This document shows, one piece after another, positions 49,214 to 59,212 of a DNA stretch of 64,000 bases (its first letter is position 1; each line of letters opens with the position of its first letter). The notes beneath the pieces are model-generated. The model was not told where the DNA came from. It saw only the letters and a list, made by a program, of their open reading frames with translations, and did no database searches. A program made the translations under genes and the position numbers. The stretch is from NCBI GenBank assembly GCA_017577405.1, contig PIUA01000023.1, forward strand, positions 62,001-126,000, read 5' to 3'. This stretch comes from Bacillota bacterium (GTDB taxonomy: Bacteria; Bacillota; Limnochordia; Limnochordales; Limnochordaceae).

Positions 49214-50383
49214 GTGGATGGTGAGGCCCGTCGGTCGGTGAGCCAGCCAGGGCGGTGGTGGGTGGCCCCCCTGCTGATCTGGCTGGTCTTCTCGTGCTTG
49301 GGGGTCGCCCTGCCCCATCCGGCGGCCGGGGCGGGAGCCGGCGGGCAGCTCCAGATCGGAGAGCCGTGGGAGATCTGGGTGGGGTACGGGGTCCGTTTCG
49401 GGCTGCTCACCATCGAGACGCCCGCTGGGCCCGCCCGGGCCCAGTACCTCCGGGTGGATACCCGTCTGGACGGGGTCCAGGTCCGGCCCGTGCTGGCTGG
49501 GGCCACCCTGGAGGGCCGGGCCACGGTGGGTCAGATGGTCCGGGAGCACGGCGCCTTGGCCGGGGTGAATGGCACCTATTTCGCCGCCGGCCGCCCCTTG
49601 GGTCTCCTTCTCCTGGACGGCCAGATGCACAGCCAGCCCATCCTCTCCCGGACGGCCCTATTCTTTGGCCGGGGGCCCTTCGGCGAGGCCCGCTGGTGGA
49701 TCGGCCCCGCCACCTTCCAAGGGGAGGTGGCGGGCCGGGAGGGGACCCGCCCCCTGGCGGCCGTCAACCGGGCGCCGGGCATCCAGGAGCTGGCCGTTTT
49801 CACCCCCCTGGCCGGCGCGGTGGCCCGGGTGCCTGAGGGCGGGGCCGCCTGGGCAGTGGTGGACGGCCAGGTGGTGGCCACGTCCGTGGGGGAGTCCCTG
49901 CCCATTCCGCCCGACGGGTACGTCATCGTGGCCGGTGCCCAGGCCGAGGCGCCGTGGCCCGTGATGCCCGGGATCCCCTTGGAGGCCCGGTGGGGCCTGG
50001 CGGAGGCGATCCCCCTGGACCACCTGGAGTGGGCAGTGGGGGGTGGGCCCCGCTTGCTGCGGGCCGGGCGTGTGGATGTGACCGCGGAGGCCGAGCGGTT
50101 TCAGCCCGACGTGGCCCGGAGCCGGGCACCCCGGACGGCAGCCGGCGTGGACAGTCGGGGCCGGCTCATCCTGCTCACCGTCAACGGGCGTCAGGCCTCC
50201 AGCGTCGGCCTCACCCTGACCGAACTGGCCGAGGTCATGGCCTCCCTGGGCGCCCAGGACGCGCTCAACCTGGACGGCGGCGGGTCCAGCACCATGGTGC
50301 TTCGCGGCGACTTGTTCAATCTTCCGTCCGACGGGCGGGAGCGACCTGTGGCCAACGCGCTCTTGGTCTTCACCGATCGCTGA
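49214..50383 (+). CDS. Phosphodiester glycosidase (NAGPA/DUF2233) family secreted protein
   Basis: GVNGTYFAAGRPLGLLLLDGQ...LGAQDALNLDGGGSSTMVLRGDLFNLPSDGRERPVANALLVF. Confidence 0.87.
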   Translation: MDGEARRSVSQPGRWWVAPLLIWLVFSCLGVALPHPAAGAGAGGQLQIGEPWEIWVGYGVRFGLLTIETPAGPARAQYLRVDTRLDGVQVRPVLAGATLEGRATVGQMVREHGALAGVNGTYFAAGRPLGLLLLDGQMHSQPILSRTALFFGRGPFGEARWWIGPATFQGEVAGREGTRPLAAVNRAPGIQELAVFTPLAGAVARVPEGGAAWAVVDGQVVATSVGESLPIPPDGYVIVAGAQAEAPWPVMPGIPLEARWGLAEAIPLDHLEWAVGGGPRLLRAGRVDVTAEAERFQPDVARSRAPRTAAGVDSRGRLILLTVNGRQASSVGLTLTELAEVMASLGAQDALNLDGGGSSTMVLRGDLFNLPSDGRERPVANALLVFTDR

Positions 50384-50413: not shown

Positions 50414-52369
50414 ATGCCCTTCACAAGGCTGAAGGCGCACGCGCTTTGGCTCCTGGTAGCGGCCCTCCTGGGCCTGACAGCGCCGGCAGGGGCCGCCCCC
50501 ATCTGGAACGGCCAGCTCTTCCCCGTGGAAGAGGTGGTGCCCGGTCTCCGGGGGACGGGGTACACCGTCATCGGGGGAACGGATATCGAAGCCTTTGACG
50601 TTCTCTTCCTCGGGGTCCTCCCCGGGGCGGGGCCGGCGGGTGACCTCCTCCTGGTGGAGACGTCCGGCCCCCTCATCGAGCAGACAGGCGGCATCGCCTC
50701 CGGCATGAGCGGCAGCCCTGTCTTCGTGGACGGCCGCTTGGTGGGCGCCATCGCCTACGGCTTTGGCTACGCCGATCACCGGATCGGCCTGGTGACGCCC
50801 ATCGGCGACATGCTCCGGGTTCTGGAGCGGATGGGGGCTGAGGACGCGGCGGCCCAGGCGCCCTCGCCCGCGGGACCCCGCCAGGTAGCCTTCGCTCCCG
50901 ATGAGGCCACGGCCGCCCAGCTTCTCGCCCAACTGCCGCCAGGCACCGAGGTGCTGGTCCCCCTGGCCACGCCGCTGATGGCGGGCGGGTTCGGGCCCCG
51001 GGCCCTCCACCTGGTGGAGGGGTGGGCGAAGCGGCTCCTTGGGGGTCCCTTCCTCACCGTGCCCACAGGGACGGCCCCCGCCTCGGTCCAGCCGGGGACG
51101 GTCTCTTTCCAGCCGGGGAGCGCCTTTGGCGTCCAGCTCCTGGGCGGTGATGTGAGCCTCTCGGCCCTGGGTACCGTCACCTGGACCGATGGGGACCGGT
51201 TCCTGGGGCTGGGCCATCCCTTCCTCAACGGGGGCGCCGTCCATTGGGTGACCAGCGGCGCCGCCATCCTCCGGACCGTCTCCAGTGCCCAGATGCCCTT
51301 CAAGGTGGGCGTGGTGACCGACCCGGCGGGCACCCTGACCCAGGACCGGGCGGCCGGGGTGGCCGGGCGCTTGGGCCCCCTCCCCGAGCGGGTCCAGGTG
51401 GCGGTCCGGGTCACTGACCTGGACCATCCCCAGGGGGAGACCCCCCAACGGTTCAGCTTCTGGGCCGTGGACGACCCCTGGCTCCTGCCCGATCTGGTCA
51501 CCGTCGGGGTCCTCCAGGCCCTGGACCAGGGGATCGACCGCATCGGCCCCGGTACCGCCCGGGTCCTCTTCCGCCTGGAGGCGGAGAGCCTCCCCCAAAC
51601 CCTGGTCCGGGACAACATGGTCTACTCCGAATCGGACGTCTCCGCCCTGGCCGTGGGCGAGCTCCTGGAAGGGGTGGAGCTGCTGGCGGCCAATCCCTTC
51701 CGGGAAGTGCCCCTCCGCCGGGTGGAGGTGGAAGCCCGCATCACCCGCCAGCCCCAAGTGGCCCAGATCGTGGAGGTTCGCCCCGCGGCCACCCGGGTGG
51801 CCGCCGGCGACTCGGTCCTCATCGAGGTGGAGCTCCAGACCTACCGGGGCCCCCGGGAGACGCGGGCGATCCGCCTCACCATCCCGCCGGGCACCCCCGC
51901 CGGCCGGGTGGCGGTGACGGTCCGGGGTGGGTATAGCACCAGCCCTTCGGCCGTGGTCCATGCTGAGCTCTTTGCCGAGGAGAAAACGGGCGAGCCGGTG
52001 GAGGAAGGTCTCCCCCTGCCCGAGGGCGGCTCCCTGGAGGAGCAGCTGGAGACCTTCCGGACCCGGGAGCGGAACTACGAGCTGGTGGCCGAGTTCTACC
52101 CGCCCTTCGGCCCGCTGCCGCCGGCGGAGTCCCAGGCCGGCGCGGAGAACCCGGCCCGGACCGAAGGGGAGGGGGCGCCGATGGCGGAGGAGGATCGGGA
52201 CCAGCCCCGCAGCCATCAGCCCAGCCTGCCCGGCAACGGGAAGCCTGTCCAGGCCCGCCTGGCCACCGACTGGGTCATCCGGGGATCGGACCAGTTCGAG
52301 CTGGAGATCGTCGAGCCAGTCCAGGAAGAGGAACCCGCGGCAGAGGCTCCCGGTTCCACCCCCTTCTGA
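50414..52369 (+). CDS. SpoIVB-type peptidase S55 domain protein, exported
   Basis: Signal peptide; TGGIASGMSGSPVFVDGRLVGAIAYGF (Ser motif) near residue 100; GDRFLGLGHPFLNGGAVHWVTSGAAILRTV near residue 266. Confidence 0.82.
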   Translation: MPFTRLKAHALWLLVAALLGLTAPAGAAPIWNGQLFPVEEVVPGLRGTGYTVIGGTDIEAFDVLFLGVLPGAGPAGDLLLVETSGPLIEQTGGIASGMSGSPVFVDGRLVGAIAYGFGYADHRIGLVTPIGDMLRVLERMGAEDAAAQAPSPAGPRQVAFAPDEATAAQLLAQLPPGTEVLVPLATPLMAGGFGPRALHLVEGWAKRLLGGPFLTVPTGTAPASVQPGTVSFQPGSAFGVQLLGGDVSLSALGTVTWTDGDRFLGLGHPFLNGGAVHWVTSGAAILRTVSSAQMPFKVGVVTDPAGTLTQDRAAGVAGRLGPLPERVQVAVRVTDLDHPQGETPQRFSFWAVDDPWLLPDLVTVGVLQALDQGIDRIGPGTARVLFRLEAESLPQTLVRDNMVYSESDVSALAVGELLEGVELLAANPFREVPLRRVEVEARITRQPQVAQIVEVRPAATRVAAGDSVLIEVELQTYRGPRETRAIRLTIPPGTPAGRVAVTVRGGYSTSPSAVVHAELFAEEKTGEPVEEGLPLPEGGSLEEQLETFRTRERNYELVAEFYPPFGPLPPAESQAGAENPARTEGEGAPMAEEDRDQPRSHQPSLPGNGKPVQARLATDWVIRGSDQFELEIVEPVQEEEPAAEAPGSTPF

Positions 52370-52504
52370 CTCCCGGAACAGGAATTACAGGCCCTTTTCC
52401 GGGAGGATGGGTCTGGGCCGCCACGAACCTATGGCTTGGCGCCGGCTCGAGCCGGGCCGGGGACCTTCACCCTGGAGCTGCCAACGACGAGTGGGGGCGT
52501 TCAC

Positions 52505-54223
52505 GTGCGACCAATGAGGAATCAGACCATGCATCGTCTCAGGATCCTGACCTGGCTGCTGGTGGGGCTGATGATCAGCCTGGGGCCGGCCGCTGCGGTC
52601 CAGGCCCAGGAGGCGACGGAGCCCATCGTCCAGTCCATTGCGGTCCGGGGCAACCAGCGGGTCCCGGCCGAGGTGATCCTGGACCAGATCAAGGCCAGCC
52701 GCATCGGCCGGCCCGTGGACCCTGAGGCCCTCCAGAAGGATGCCCAAGCCATCCTGGAGCTGGGAACCATTGAGAGCGTCAGCTTCCAGATGCCCGTGGT
52801 GCCCGGCGGGATCCAGCTGGTCTTCGTGGTGGAGGAGCTGCCCGTCTTGACCCGGGTGGTCCTGGAAGGGCTGGAGGGTCTGGACGAGCAGGCGCTCCTC
52901 GCGGAGACGGGGCTGGTGACGGGTGAGGTCCTCGACCTGCACGAGGTTCAGAACGCCCTCGCCACCATCCAGTACCAGGCGCTGGAACAGGAGGGGCTCC
53001 TGATCCGGCCCACCCAGACCCCGACCTGGAACGATGAGGGCGTCCTCACCCTCGCCTTCGCGCCTGTCCGGTTGAACGAGATCCGGGTGGAGGGGAACCA
53101 GAAGACCCTGGACTACGTCATCCTGCGGGAGATGCGTATCAAGCCCGGGGACCCCATCGACCTGAAGGTGGTCGACCGGGGCTTGCGGGACGTCCTCCAG
53201 CTGGGATACTTCGACCAGGTGAGCCGGAGCTTCGCTGAGACGGGCGACCCCGAGACCTTGGACCTGATCGTCCACGTCCAGGAGCGGAAGACAGGGATGG
53301 CCAGCCTGGGGGTCACCTGGAGCTCGCCGGGGGGCTTCGGCGGGTATGTGGACGTCTCGGACGTCAACTTCCTGGGCCGGGGCCAGGAGGCGGGCGTGAA
53401 GATCTCGGTGGCCCGTTCCTCCAGCGAGTACGAGCTCCGCTTCCGGGAGCCGTACCTGACCGACAGCGGCCTCTCCCTCGGGGTGAGCCTCTTCCACCGG
53501 AACCGGGTGGACACCAAGCACCCGTCCCAGAGCTGGTACCACGACCTGGGGCTGAGCCTCAGCCTGGGCCACCCCGTCGGGAGCTACAGCCGCCTCATCG
53601 GGACCTTCTCCATGGACACCCGGACCTACGACGAAAAGGCGTACGACCCAGACCTGGGCAGATTTGCCAACAGCAGCTACCGGTCCTTTGAGCTGGCCCT
53701 GGCCACCGACACCACCGACCACCCCTTCTTCCCCACGACGGGGTACCGGAACCGGCTCTCGGTCACCTTCGGCGGCGGGCTTCTGGGCGGTGACTGGAGC
53801 CACCAGATCTACCAAGAGACCTTCAGCCGCTACATCAAGGTGGGGAGCTCCAACCAGACCCTGGCCTTCCGCCTCAGCACCGGCTGGCTGAACGGCGAGG
53901 CCCGGCGGAGCGAGCAGTTCTGGGTGGGCGGCTCCGAGACCCTGCGGGGGTACGACTACGGCGAGTTCGTGGGGCACGCCAAGCTGGTGGCCAACGCGGA
54001 GTACCGGTTCCCCATCGCGGATCAGGTCCAGGGCGTCTTCTTCGTGGACGCGGGCCGGGCGTGGGACTTTGAGAAGGACGAAGCGGTCCGGCTGGCCGAC
54101 CTGGAGGTGGGGTACGGCTTCGGCATCCGGCTGAACACGCCCATCGGCATGCTCCGCCTCGACTACGGCATGAGCGCCGATCGGCCGGGCCAGCCCTACA
54201 TCAGCATTGGACAGACCTTCTGA
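52505..54223 (+). CDS. bamA: Outer-membrane protein assembly factor BamA (Omp85), three POTRA repeats
   Basis: Signal peptide, three POTRA-like repeats, C-terminal barrel with WVGGSETLRGYDYGEF and RLDYGMS...YISIGQTF. Confidence 0.93.
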   Translation: MRPMRNQTMHRLRILTWLLVGLMISLGPAAAVQAQEATEPIVQSIAVRGNQRVPAEVILDQIKASRIGRPVDPEALQKDAQAILELGTIESVSFQMPVVPGGIQLVFVVEELPVLTRVVLEGLEGLDEQALLAETGLVTGEVLDLHEVQNALATIQYQALEQEGLLIRPTQTPTWNDEGVLTLAFAPVRLNEIRVEGNQKTLDYVILREMRIKPGDPIDLKVVDRGLRDVLQLGYFDQVSRSFAETGDPETLDLIVHVQERKTGMASLGVTWSSPGGFGGYVDVSDVNFLGRGQEAGVKISVARSSSEYELRFREPYLTDSGLSLGVSLFHRNRVDTKHPSQSWYHDLGLSLSLGHPVGSYSRLIGTFSMDTRTYDEKAYDPDLGRFANSSYRSFELALATDTTDHPFFPTTGYRNRLSVTFGGGLLGGDWSHQIYQETFSRYIKVGSSNQTLAFRLSTGWLNGEARRSEQFWVGGSETLRGYDYGEFVGHAKLVANAEYRFPIADQVQGVFFVDAGRAWDFEKDEAVRLADLEVGYGFGIRLNTPIGMLRLDYGMSADRPGQPYISIGQTF

Positions 54224-54262: not shown

Positions 54263-54823
54263 GTGGTACGGGAACATGGAGGGAGCTGGGGGACCGTCGT
54301 CGCCAGCCGCGCCGTCGTCGCGCTGCTGGCGGCGCTGGTCTTTCTCGCCCCTGCGGGGGCAGGGGCCCAGGGGGAGGGGCCGGCCGTCGGCTACGTGGAC
54401 CTGCAGGTGATCCAAGCCCAGTACCTGCTGCCCAACCTGCAGCCGTCTCTGGCCGCACTGGAGCAACGGCTGATCGAACTCCAGGCCAAGTTTGACGAGG
54501 AGAGCGTGGGCCTGGACGACGAGGCCAAGCAGGCCCTCTTCAACGTGTACCAGGCGGAGCTCAACGCGCAATCGGCCGGGGTGGAGCGTTTCGAGGAGGA
54601 ACTGAAGGCCAACATCGCGGCCGCCATCGCCTCGGTGGCCGCCGAGCACGGGGTCTCCACGGTTCTGGCCAAGGACGTGGTCCTCACCGTGACCGGGGAC
54701 CATGGGCTGCCGCGGGTGATGACCCAGCCGCTGGTCCTCCACGGGGGCATCGATCTGACGGGCCCCGTCCTGCGCCGGTTGGGTGTCCAACTGGCCTCCC
54801 CGGAGAACGGTGAGGAAGGATAA
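54263..54823 (+). CDS. OmpH/Skp-family periplasmic chaperone
   Basis: Signal peptide, GYVDLQVIQAQY, central coiled coil, VLAKDVVLTV near the C-terminus; follows bamA. Confidence 0.85.
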   Translation: MVREHGGSWGTVVASRAVVALLAALVFLAPAGAGAQGEGPAVGYVDLQVIQAQYLLPNLQPSLAALEQRLIELQAKFDEESVGLDDEAKQALFNVYQAELNAQSAGVERFEEELKANIAAAIASVAAEHGVSTVLAKDVVLTVTGDHGLPRVMTQPLVLHGGIDLTGPVLRRLGVQLASPENGEEG

Positions 54824-55277: not shown

Positions 55278-56390
55278 GTGGAGCGCCACGCGGAGGAGCT
55301 GGCCGCCCGGCTGGGGGGCCAGCTGGACGGCCCGGCTGACCTGGTGGTGACGGGGCCCGCCCCCTTGGACGAGGCGGGGCCGCGCCATGTGGCCTATCTG
55401 GATCAAGGCCAGCCCTGGGCCCGGGCGGAGCAGAGCCGGGCCGGCCTCCTCCTGGCCCCCCGCAGCCTCCGGGATCAGGTGAAGACGACCCGCCCCGTCA
55501 TCTGGGTGGACCATCCCCGGGTCGCCTTCGCCCAGGTGCTGGCCCTCTTTCAGGAGCCGGGCTGGTTGGAGGAAGGGATCCATCCCACGGCCTGTGTCGC
55601 CCCCGACGCGGAGCTGGGGGAGCGGGTCCGGGTGGGTCCCTACGTCTTTATCGGGCCCGGCGCCCGCATCGGCGCGGGCACCTGGCTCTACCCGGGAGCC
55701 CGGGTGGGGCGGGGGGCGGTGGTGGGCCGCGACTGTCTTCTGCGGGAGAACAGCGTGGTGGCCGACCGGGTCCACTTGGGGGACCGGGTCATCCTCCAGC
55801 CGGGGGCGGTGGTGGGGGCCGACGGATTTGGCTACGCCACCGACGGAACGGGAACGCACCACAAAATCCCCCATTTGGGCACCGTGGTGGTGGAGGATGA
55901 TGTGGAGATCGGCGCCAACAGTACCATTGACCGGGGGACCCTGGGGGCGACGGTCATCGGGCGGGGGACCAAGATCGACAACCTGGTCCACGTGGCCCAC
56001 AACGTCCAGATCGGGGAAAACTGCCTGCTGGTTGCCCAGGTGGGGGTGGCGGGGAGCGCCCGGCTGGGTCGAGGGGTGATCCTGGCGGGCCAGGCGGGCG
56101 TCAGCGACCATGTCCGGCTGGCCGACGGGACCATGGTCGCGGCCCAGGCCGGCGTCTTGAAAGATGTGGACGGGGGTCTGGTCTCGGGGCTCCCGGCTCG
56201 GCCCCACGGGGAGCAGATGCGGATGCTTGCCGCCCAGCGGCGGGTGCCCCAGCTCTTGCGGGAGGTGGCCGCCCTGCGGGCCGAGGTGGCCCTCCTCCGG
56301 GACCAGCTCGCCTTCCTTCGGGGCGAGCGGGCGGGGGAGTCCTTGAGCAGGGACGAGGGGCCGGCACGGGGAACCACGGGGGAAGAGTGA
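55278..56390 (+). CDS. lpxD: UDP-3-O-(3-hydroxyacyl)glucosamine N-acyltransferase
   Basis: Hexapeptide left-handed beta-helix, GADGFGYATDGTGTHHKIPHLGTVVVEDDVEIGANSTIDRGTLGATVIGRGTKIDNLVHVAHNVQIGENCLL. Confidence 0.96.
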   Translation: MERHAEELAARLGGQLDGPADLVVTGPAPLDEAGPRHVAYLDQGQPWARAEQSRAGLLLAPRSLRDQVKTTRPVIWVDHPRVAFAQVLALFQEPGWLEEGIHPTACVAPDAELGERVRVGPYVFIGPGARIGAGTWLYPGARVGRGAVVGRDCLLRENSVVADRVHLGDRVILQPGAVVGADGFGYATDGTGTHHKIPHLGTVVVEDDVEIGANSTIDRGTLGATVIGRGTKIDNLVHVAHNVQIGENCLLVAQVGVAGSARLGRGVILAGQAGVSDHVRLADGTMVAAQAGVLKDVDGGLVSGLPARPHGEQMRMLAAQRRVPQLLREVAALRAEVALLRDQLAFLRGERAGESLSRDEGPARGTTGEE

Positions 56391-57187: not shown

Positions 57188-59212
57188 GTGTCCGTGCGGA
57201 TTCTTCTCCAAGATGGTTTCGGAAAACACTTGATTCTCCTCTGGCTTCTGGCCGCCCTCCTCACCACGGGAGGAGCGTGGGCCGGCGCGCGCGTGGCCAG
57301 GGTATACCTCGGCCGGACGGTCGATGAGGCCCTGGGCGACGCTGGGGCCTACGACGCCATCCTCCACTGGCGTTCTGAAACGGCTTTCCAAAGTTTGTCC
57401 GAAGCGGAAGAGCTTCTCGCCGCGGCCTACCCCGGCGTCCGGCTCCACCGGGGGCCGGAGGTGGTGGGGAACGCCAACCTCTTCGTGGCCCTTCCTGAGA
57501 GCGCCCGGACGGCCGCCGGCCTGGAGGAACTGCCTCAGGCGGTGCGGGAGCTGCCCGGGTACAACGGGATCACCTACCTGGTGGAGCCCTCCATCGATCT
57601 GGCGGGGGTGCCCCCGGGCCTGGAAGAGGAGCTGACCCGGCAGGTGGCGGCCATCCCGGGGGTCGCCTTCGTCTTCTGGCACGGAACCACCCTCACCGCC
57701 GTTCTGGAGGGAGCGGGGCAGCTCCCTGAGGTCTCCCGCCGGTTGGAGGAGCTGGTGGAGGCCCAGAGCCTGGTGGAGGTCATCCTGGCCCAGGAGGGCC
57801 CGGCCGATGCCCAGGCCCTCGCCGATCGCCTGACAGCCGGGACGGGCCTCCCCTTCCACCCGCTGGGTGAGAGCGCGGAAGGGGCCCATCTGGCGGGGGC
57901 CGTCGCCCGGCTGGGCCAGCTCCTTCCCCTCCTGCGGGAGGAGACGGGGCTGAAGGCGGCCTTCGGCCAGACGGCCCAGGAGCTGCGGCAACTGGCCCAG
58001 GCGGTGGCCGAAGGGCAGGGGGCCGCCCGGTCCGCCATCCAGGCGGGCCAGGAGACGACCGCCCAGATCCAGACCGCGCTCCATCAGGTGGAGAGCCTCC
58101 AGGCCCGGGTCGACCAGCTGGCCCAGGAGCTGGCCAGCCCCCAGGGGCGGAGCACCACCCTGGGGCTCCTGGCCCAGATTCTGATGGAGAACCTGGTGGG
58201 TGGGACCGCCCAGGCGGCCCCCGGGCGACCGGCCACCCGGGAGGGGGCGGAGGATCCCCTGGCCGCGGTGGAGGCCCTCGACGGGGAGGGGCTGGCCGCC
58301 TTCCAGGGCGAGTTGGAGACGCTGCAGGCGAGCCTGGAGGCCATGGATCCGGCGGCCTTGGAGGCGGCCGCGGGCCGGTTGGAGGCGGCCATGGACCGTC
58401 TCCCTGAGTTGACCGACCAAGAGGTGGAGGAGCTGGCCGGTCTCCTTGCCCAATGGGGCTCGGACCTGGGCGAGTCGGGCGAGCGCCTCGCCTTCCTGGT
58501 GACGGGACCCGTGGCGGCAGAAGCCCTAACCCAAAGGATTGAAGACGCGCTGGGCGATGAGCAGCAGGGGGTGCGGGTGCTTCCTCCGGCAGCGGTGCGG
58601 CCCAGCCCCCGGGCCAGCCTGATGCAGATGCTCCACCAGGCCCAGGGGCTGGTAGCGGGGCTGTTGGTCATCGGGTTGGGCGGGGCCCATCTCCTCCTGG
58701 ACCTGTCGGTCATCCGTCAGGGGGCCCGCACCTTGGGCCGCCTCCAGCCCCGTCGGCCCGCAGGACGGCAGGGGACCCGACCCCTCCGGCGCTGGAGCAG
58801 GGGGGGTTTCGACGGAACCTGGTGGCTCGCCATGGTCTGGGGCGGCTCCCTCCTGACGGTGGCCGCCACCCTCTCGGGGGCCCAGCTGCCGTGGGTGGAC
58901 GGGAAGGGTACCTTCCTGCTGGGCGCGGTCCTGGCCCTCCTCGCCTGGGCCCTGGCGGGCCGGATCAACCCCGTCCGGGCCGAAGAGGTGGAGCTGGCGG
59001 TGGCGGCCGGGCTGACCCCCGTCCAGGTGATGGAGGCGGTCATCCTGCCCGAGGCCCGCCCCTCCCTGCTGGGCCTGATGACCCGGAATGGGCGGCTCCT
59101 GGAGGGGCCGGGCGATCCCCGGCGGCCCTTCTGGGCCCGGCTGGGCGAGACGATCCGAGGAAGGAGGCGGATCCATGGCGACGGCCACGGAGCGGGTCCC
59201 GGGCGCCCCTGA
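57188..59212 (+). CDS. Membrane protein with large extracytoplasmic coiled-coil domain and EAA-like cytoplasmic motif; putative ABC permease partner
   Basis: N-terminal TM, about 400-aa coiled-coil-rich region, about three C-terminal TMs, then EEVELAVAAGLTPVQVMEAVILPEARPSLL resembling the EAA---G---------I-LP loop. Overlaps the downstream ABC ATPase gene. Confidence 0.6.
   Translation: MSVRILLQDGFGKHLILLWLLAALLTTGGAWAGARVARVYLGRTVDEALGDAGAYDAILHWRSETAFQSLSEAEELLAAAYPGVRLHRGPEVVGNANLFVALPESARTAAGLEELPQAVRELPGYNGITYLVEPSIDLAGVPPGLEEELTRQVAAIPGVAFVFWHGTTLTAVLEGAGQLPEVSRRLEELVEAQSLVEVILAQEGPADAQALADRLTAGTGLPFHPLGESAEGAHLAGAVARLGQLLPLLREETGLKAAFGQTAQELRQLAQAVAEGQGAARSAIQAGQETTAQIQTALHQVESLQARVDQLAQELASPQGRSTTLGLLAQILMENLVGGTAQAAPGRPATREGAEDPLAAVEALDGEGLAAFQGELETLQASLEAMDPAALEAAAGRLEAAMDRLPELTDQEVEELAGLLAQWGSDLGESGERLAFLVTGPVAAEALTQRIEDALGDEQQGVRVLPPAAVRPSPRASLMQMLHQAQGLVAGLLVIGLGGAHLLLDLSVIRQGARTLGRLQPRRPAGRQGTRPLRRWSRGGFDGTWWLAMVWGGSLLTVAATLSGAQLPWVDGKGTFLLGAVLALLAWALAGRINPVRAEEVELAVAAGLTPVQVMEAVILPEARPSLLGLMTRNGRLLEGPGDPRRPFWARLGETIRGRRRIHGDGHGAGPGRP

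Follow-up and report, generated by a model that had tools for sequence, protein, structure and literature searches.

A predicted exported serine protease related to SpoIVB (S55), with its two barrels in swapped order and its gene linked to outer-membrane genes in diderm Bacillota

In the structure of SpoIVB (MEROPS S55, PF05580, TIGR02860, PDB 9lnf), His236 lies near residue 378, and the presumed acid, Asp363, is ~24 Å away (PMC12502668). HtrA, DegP, DegS, and MarP (clan PA, S1C), which adopt the chymotrypsin fold, are periplasmic quality-control or signaling proteases. The outer membrane has been lost repeatedly in the phylum, and the cluster of outer-membrane genes in diderm Firmicutes has been described in a paper whose main text does not mention S55 (PMC5007114).

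A related protein has been recorded in Veillonella parvula. According to PMC5491611, Vpar_0521 is one of 78 outer-membrane proteins, is well conserved in diderm Firmicutes, and carries an N-terminal SpoIVB domain with a role to be determined; a C-terminal DUF1090 was also reported. The same paper gives 990 proteins for the outer-membrane extract, many of them acknowledged false positives, and numbers Vpar_0519 (DUF2233), 0525 (TolC), 0526 (TamB), and 0527 (BamA) as neighbors. We liken Vpar_0521 to the protein analyzed here by its description and numbering, which fit the NAGPA - S55 - tolC - tamB - bamA order described below. Because Vpar_0521 is listed in the outer-membrane proteome, the protein and its possible outer-membrane role have been noted previously; no mention of an order swap or a triad was found in the accessible portion of PMC5491611.

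The window, the whole 64,000-nucleotide stretch of DNA that was analyzed, contains an open reading frame preceded by a plausible ribosome-binding site, ggagagagggagag (Table 1). The motifs that a first-pass annotation had read near residues 100 and 266 of an exported S55 homologue were located at residues 97–102 (GMSGSP) and 265–270 (GLGHPF), behind a Sec signal peptide in which inspection of the sequence revealed no lipobox cysteine. The assignment to S55 goes beyond chance: PF05580 matches at 40 bits (cut-off 25), and both motif residues are kept in 113–114 of 114 relatives. This Pfam match covers residues 51–117 and corresponds to model positions 127–194 of 210, the Ser half only. Model positions 1–126 are unmatched in the native order, with the Ser at 99 and the His at 268. 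The score against TIGR02860, the NCBIfam SpoIVB equivalog, is 37.9 bits, below the cut-off of 305. Pfam searches found no PDZ domain and no match to PF13365 (Trypsin_2, HtrA/DegP) at E 1, and a promoter/terminator scan at the locus gave no signal over chance.

Table 1. Positions in the window of the predicted protease gene, its parts, and its neighbors.
Feature	Position	Strand	Basis or remark
NAGPA (DUF2233) protein, conserved upstream neighbor	49214..50383	+	PF09992 E 3e-38; synteny
Exported permuted S55-type serine protease (predicted)	50414..52369	+	651 aa; predicted from sequence
Sec signal peptide, residues 1-28, MPFTRLKAHALWLLVAALLGLTAPAGAA	50414..50497	+	read off sequence
Ser-carrying barrel, residues 31-135, equivalent to SpoIVB S55 C-terminal half	50504..50818	+	hhalign, Foldseek
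GMSGSP, residues 97-102, candidate nucleophile S99	50702..50719	+	S99 in 114/114 homologues
Connector, residues 136-227: remainder of helix 130-143, then variable linker between barrels	50819..51094	+	AlphaFold DSSP, alignment
His-carrying barrel, residues 228-335, equivalent to SpoIVB S55 N-terminal half	51095..51418	+	hhalign E 1e-3 to 1e-4, six-strand order
GLGHPF, residues 265-270, candidate catalytic H268	51206..51223	+	H268 kept in 113 of 114 homologues; SpoIVB His236 aligns here
QDR motif, residues 310-312, candidate catalytic D311 ending barrel strand five	51341..51349	+	D311, R312 114/114
Residues 336-430, helical/beta extension; residues 431-651, C-terminal beta domain plus low-complexity tail	51419..52366	+	
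bamA (Omp85), next gene downstream	52436..54223	+	PF01103 E 4e-51; Pfam, NCBIfam
ompH/skp-like	54263..54823	+	PF03938 weak, below cut-off
lpxD	55278..56390	+	PF04613, hexapeptide repeats

The motif order is inverted in this protein, since the His precedes the Ser in the SpoIVB of the same genome and in 30 further SpoIVB proteins. The first-pass annotation had taken this inversion for a circular permutation, and three lines of evidence now support that proposal: profile-profile comparison of each half, a re-ordering test, and the modeled strand order. Using hhalign, we compared a profile of 77 window-type proteins with a profile of 31 SpoIVB proteins. The SpoIVB Ser half aligned on residues 31–135 (E 1e-22), and the His half aligned best on residues 252–315, C-terminal to the Ser half, with the SpoIVB catalytic His falling on H268. 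The His-half alignment indicates modest homology (E 1e-3 over the whole protein and 2e-4 over the segment; HH probability 20–57%). Its score was reached by 0 of 200 column shuffles (maximum 21.9 versus 26.2 observed), and an enlarged set of 114 sequences gave the same outcome in 300 shuffles (maximum 22.1 versus 26.4). Cross comparisons of the His half with the Ser half, and the reverse, returned no hhalign match. Placing the halves in the SpoIVB order produced one alignment of 195 columns at E 7e-24; the native order allowed only a single half to align with SpoIVB at a time. An HMMER profile search of the PDB matched the Ser half only. Relative to SpoIVB, the two halves of the S55 fold occur in swapped order, and both are homologous.

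AlphaFold2 with the 77-sequence alignment yielded a model with pLDDT 85 and pTM 0.83, and a single-sequence model (pLDDT 37) was set aside. The first modeled barrel comprises strands 46–52, 58–73, 76–84, 102–105, 108–116, and 124–129, with three strands on either side of S99, and is followed by helix 130–143. The second comprises strands 237–245, 248–259, 262–265, 274–289, 296–312, and 315–320; three of these precede H268, two lie between H268 and D311, and one follows. The strand order within each modeled barrel fits that of chymotrypsin, with the barrels in swapped sequence, and we take the strand positions of S99, H268, and D311 to be those of chymotrypsin Ser195, His57, and Asp102. Foldseek matched the Ser barrel to SpoIVB 9lnf (106 columns, 2.0 Å, prob 1.00) and also listed the trypsin-like proteases MarP, MucD, and DegS. 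The Foldseek alignments each covered a single half, as is to be expected of a method that aligns sequentially.

Most of the 114 homologues are 30–45% identical to the 651-aa protein, and K297 (114 of 114) is as constant as the most conserved motif residues in Table 1. One homologue (L044:2717-5146) has a T replacing the catalytic His (GFGTSVL), retains the Ser and the Asp, and is possibly an inactive copy. The D311 motif aligned with Asn290 (N290) of B. subtilis SpoIVB. Because the post-His motif alone (QDR versus kN in SpoIVB) scored non-significantly, at 13.8 against shuffles of up to 19.9, this hypothetical D311–Asn290 correspondence draws on strand position and motif spacing.

The distribution of the protein was surveyed across a sample of 200 genomes of the phylum, 50 with and 150 without Omp85. 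The full-length form was present in 48/50 Omp85-positive and 0/150 Omp85-negative genomes, with a Fisher p of 2.5e-44 that is inflated because the genomes share ancestry. Both exceptions, G032 and G074, belong to one family and are incomplete (86% and 72%). A short form (~340–390 aa) with the Ser-then-His order and the triad retained was found in three Omp85-negative genomes (L143:1694-2860, L144:1-1329, and L145:5613-6710), where it displays GASGSP or GTSGSP together with AFGHP and QDR motifs but has neither an evident signal peptide nor the C-terminal domain. These monoderm relatives lack the region past ~residue 420 and thereby delimit a permuted core of ~residues 30–420. A plasmid tblastn search for the permuted protein gave no match. 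The near confinement of the long form to Omp85-positive genomes points away from sporulation and toward a hitherto unstudied protease that helps build the outer membrane, and the almost one-to-one pairing marks it as a likely unrecognized component of outer-membrane biogenesis.

The gene neighborhood shows the same association. The first-pass annotation had situated the gene between a NAGPA gene and bamA-ompH, and the profile matches agree: PF09992 upstream and PF01103 downstream, then an OmpH-like gene (sub-cut-off) and lpxD. A scan of genome contigs retrieved 504 relatives, the best 80 of which come from Limnochordia-type MAGs, Negativicutes, Halanaerobiia, and one Armatimonadota MAG. Omp85 was encoded downstream on the same strand, 1–12.4 kb off, in all 40 contigs carrying both S55 and Omp85. 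Among loci with enough flank, the upstream gene was mreB, flgI, or NAGPA in 55 of 57, and the downstream gene was bamA or an ABC ATPase in 58 of 59. The order is NAGPA - S55 - mlaE - ABC ATPase - mlaD - tolC - tamB in Pelosinus and S55 - tamB - bamA in Orenia. At Halanaerobium and Veillonellaceae loci without flagellar genes nearby, mreB was the nearest upstream gene among those searched for. Negativicutes and Halanaerobiia each form one group in the gene tree; horizontal spread as the main history is accordingly disfavored, and the pattern fits old vertical inheritance with the diderm outer-membrane gene cluster.

Several further features of these loci were recorded. TamB (PF04357) was not found in the window's own genome, which is 86% complete. 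In the Armatimonadota MAG, tamB and an ECF-like sigma gene are closely preceded by a tandem pair of permuted S55-type genes (L108:8103-11689), both of which encode the Ser, the His, and the Asp. A 674-aa reading frame at 57188-59212 of the window also lies downstream in the related loci L054, L066, L067, and L100. The annotation counterpart of the NAGPA/DUF2233 protein (49214-50383), the conserved upstream partner, is Vpar_0519, which is likewise in the outer-membrane proteome (PMC5491611).

A search for a separate classical spoIVB in the same genome was successful. It encodes an ordinary SpoIVB of 441 aa with PDZ and S55 domains (G000:C11), which scores 352.9 bits with TIGR02860, above the cut-off, and is followed directly by spo0A (TIGR02875). 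Pfam and NCBIfam were run on these two genes; the gene upstream was read, from sequence alone, as the 3' end of recN. This locus excludes the permuted gene as the sole spoIVB of its genome, and the spoIVB-spo0A order is absent at the permuted gene's locus. Of 100 genomes tested for both spoIVB and spoIVA, four (G029, G036, G071, and G081) keep the long protein in the absence of both genes. The view that the permuted protein is not a sigma-K protein is supported, because a separate spoIVB adjoins spo0A and the permuted gene tracks Omp85 rather than sporulation. The first-pass annotation had favored quality control of outer-membrane proteins over the sigma-K checkpoint; the latter half of that statement is supported, and quality control as the specific role is plausible, although the linkage (mlaEFD, tolC, tamB, bamA, and ompH) is to outer-membrane biogenesis generally and the genome already has five HtrA-type matches. 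A "SpoIVB" domain annotation in diderm Bacillota thus does not by itself imply sporulation.

We consider it likely that the protein is an exported S55/chymotrypsin-type serine protease with circularly permuted barrels, no PDZ domain, and a different C-terminal beta domain. The Ser barrel with S99 comes first in the chain, and the His barrel with H268 and D311, which is probably the acid, comes second. Folding would bring together the same active site as in SpoIVB. We infer that the protein would most likely be proteolytically active, as a serine protease located in the periplasm or at the inner outer-membrane face, with its proteolysis and substrate in the service of outer-membrane biogenesis. 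Outer-membrane protein quality control is one possibility; processing of lipoproteins or of Tam/Mla components and stress signaling are others.

A role as a signaling (site-1) protease, which senses envelope stress in a SpoIVB- or DegS-like manner and triggers regulated intramembrane proteolysis, would agree with the function of SpoIVB, the nearest relative of known role (PMC12502668), with the listing of DegS in the fold search, and with the ECF-like sigma gene after tamB in L108. We nevertheless regard it as fairly unlikely, since Pfam detects no PDZ domain and the conserved neighbors found, among the genes searched for systematically, are structural outer-membrane-biogenesis genes. It is also unlikely, to a somewhat greater degree, that the permuted fold is a catalytically dead S55-like scaffold that binds partners such as Mla, Tam, or Bam proteins without cleaving them. 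L044, with a T for H268 and with S99 and D311 kept, would suit such a scaffold, and SpoIVB itself was crystallized with a displaced acid (PMC12502668). However, scaffolds seldom retain a whole triad, whereas S99, H268, and D311 are kept in 113–114 of 114 homologues at mostly 30–45% identity, the monoderm short forms included.

The inverted order could also be coincidental, with S55 represented by the Ser half only and the GHPF stretch belonging to an unrelated domain. Pfam detects residues 51–117 only, and in absolute terms the match of the His half scores low. Yet 0 of 200 shuffles score as high, the His register is exact, this half-barrel has its strands in the N-barrel order, and H268 is almost never replaced; the conserved Ser would, moreover, lack a base without the His half. 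These observations make coincidence improbable. Even further from what we expect is a function in sporulation, with the protein serving as a second SpoIVB in the forespore or at the outer membrane of the spore. Homology to SpoIVB and the sporulating habit of the majority of hosts speak for such a function, against which the full-length form occurs in 0/150 Omp85-negative genomes, many of them spoIVA-positive among the 100 tested, is present in the four genomes devoid of spoIVB and spoIVA, and is reported from the non-sporulating Veillonella (PMC5491611). We hold this explanation to be very improbable.

A speculative extension of the permuted-protease reading, which we judge doubtful, is that the outer-membrane-linked form keeps a complete Ser-His-Asp triad from the diderm ancestor of Bacillota. 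SpoIVB would then be a derived sister that shed the acid (Asn290 at the D311 position) upon recruitment of an envelope protease to the forespore intermembrane space. If true, this history would account for the absence of a triad acid from the crystal structure of SpoIVB and would connect a sporulation checkpoint with outer-membrane biogenesis, and D311 versus Asn290 is a candidate answer to the reported lack of a catalytic acid in SpoIVB.

The order swap, the triad, and the tight outer-membrane linkage appear new relative to prior reports. No report of the swap, the triad, or the phylum-wide Omp85 pairing was found in a search of mainly open-access literature, nor did that search find a described case of a circularly permuted trypsin-like or PA-clan protease; circular permutation in a protease of the chymotrypsin type would be out of the ordinary. 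V. parvula is genetically tractable (PMC10665443), and its homologue is open to direct testing.

HtrA, DegP, DegS, and MarP have the chymotrypsin fold that is predicted for the permuted protein but are unpermuted and mostly equipped with PDZ domains, and the permuted protein has no PF13365 match. Five separate PF13365 (HtrA-type) matches in its own genome rule out substitution for an absent HtrA; the permuted protease does not replace HtrA-type proteins, because those are also present. With SpoIVB it has in common two related barrels, the GMSGSP serine motif, the GH histidine motif, and export to an intermembrane space. Unlike SpoIVB, it has swapped barrels, lacks PDZ, carries an additional C-terminal beta domain, and shows an Asp where SpoIVB has N290 in the aligned motif, a short alignment that is non-significant alone. 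The permuted gene is linked to outer-membrane genes, and the SpoIVB gene to spo0A.
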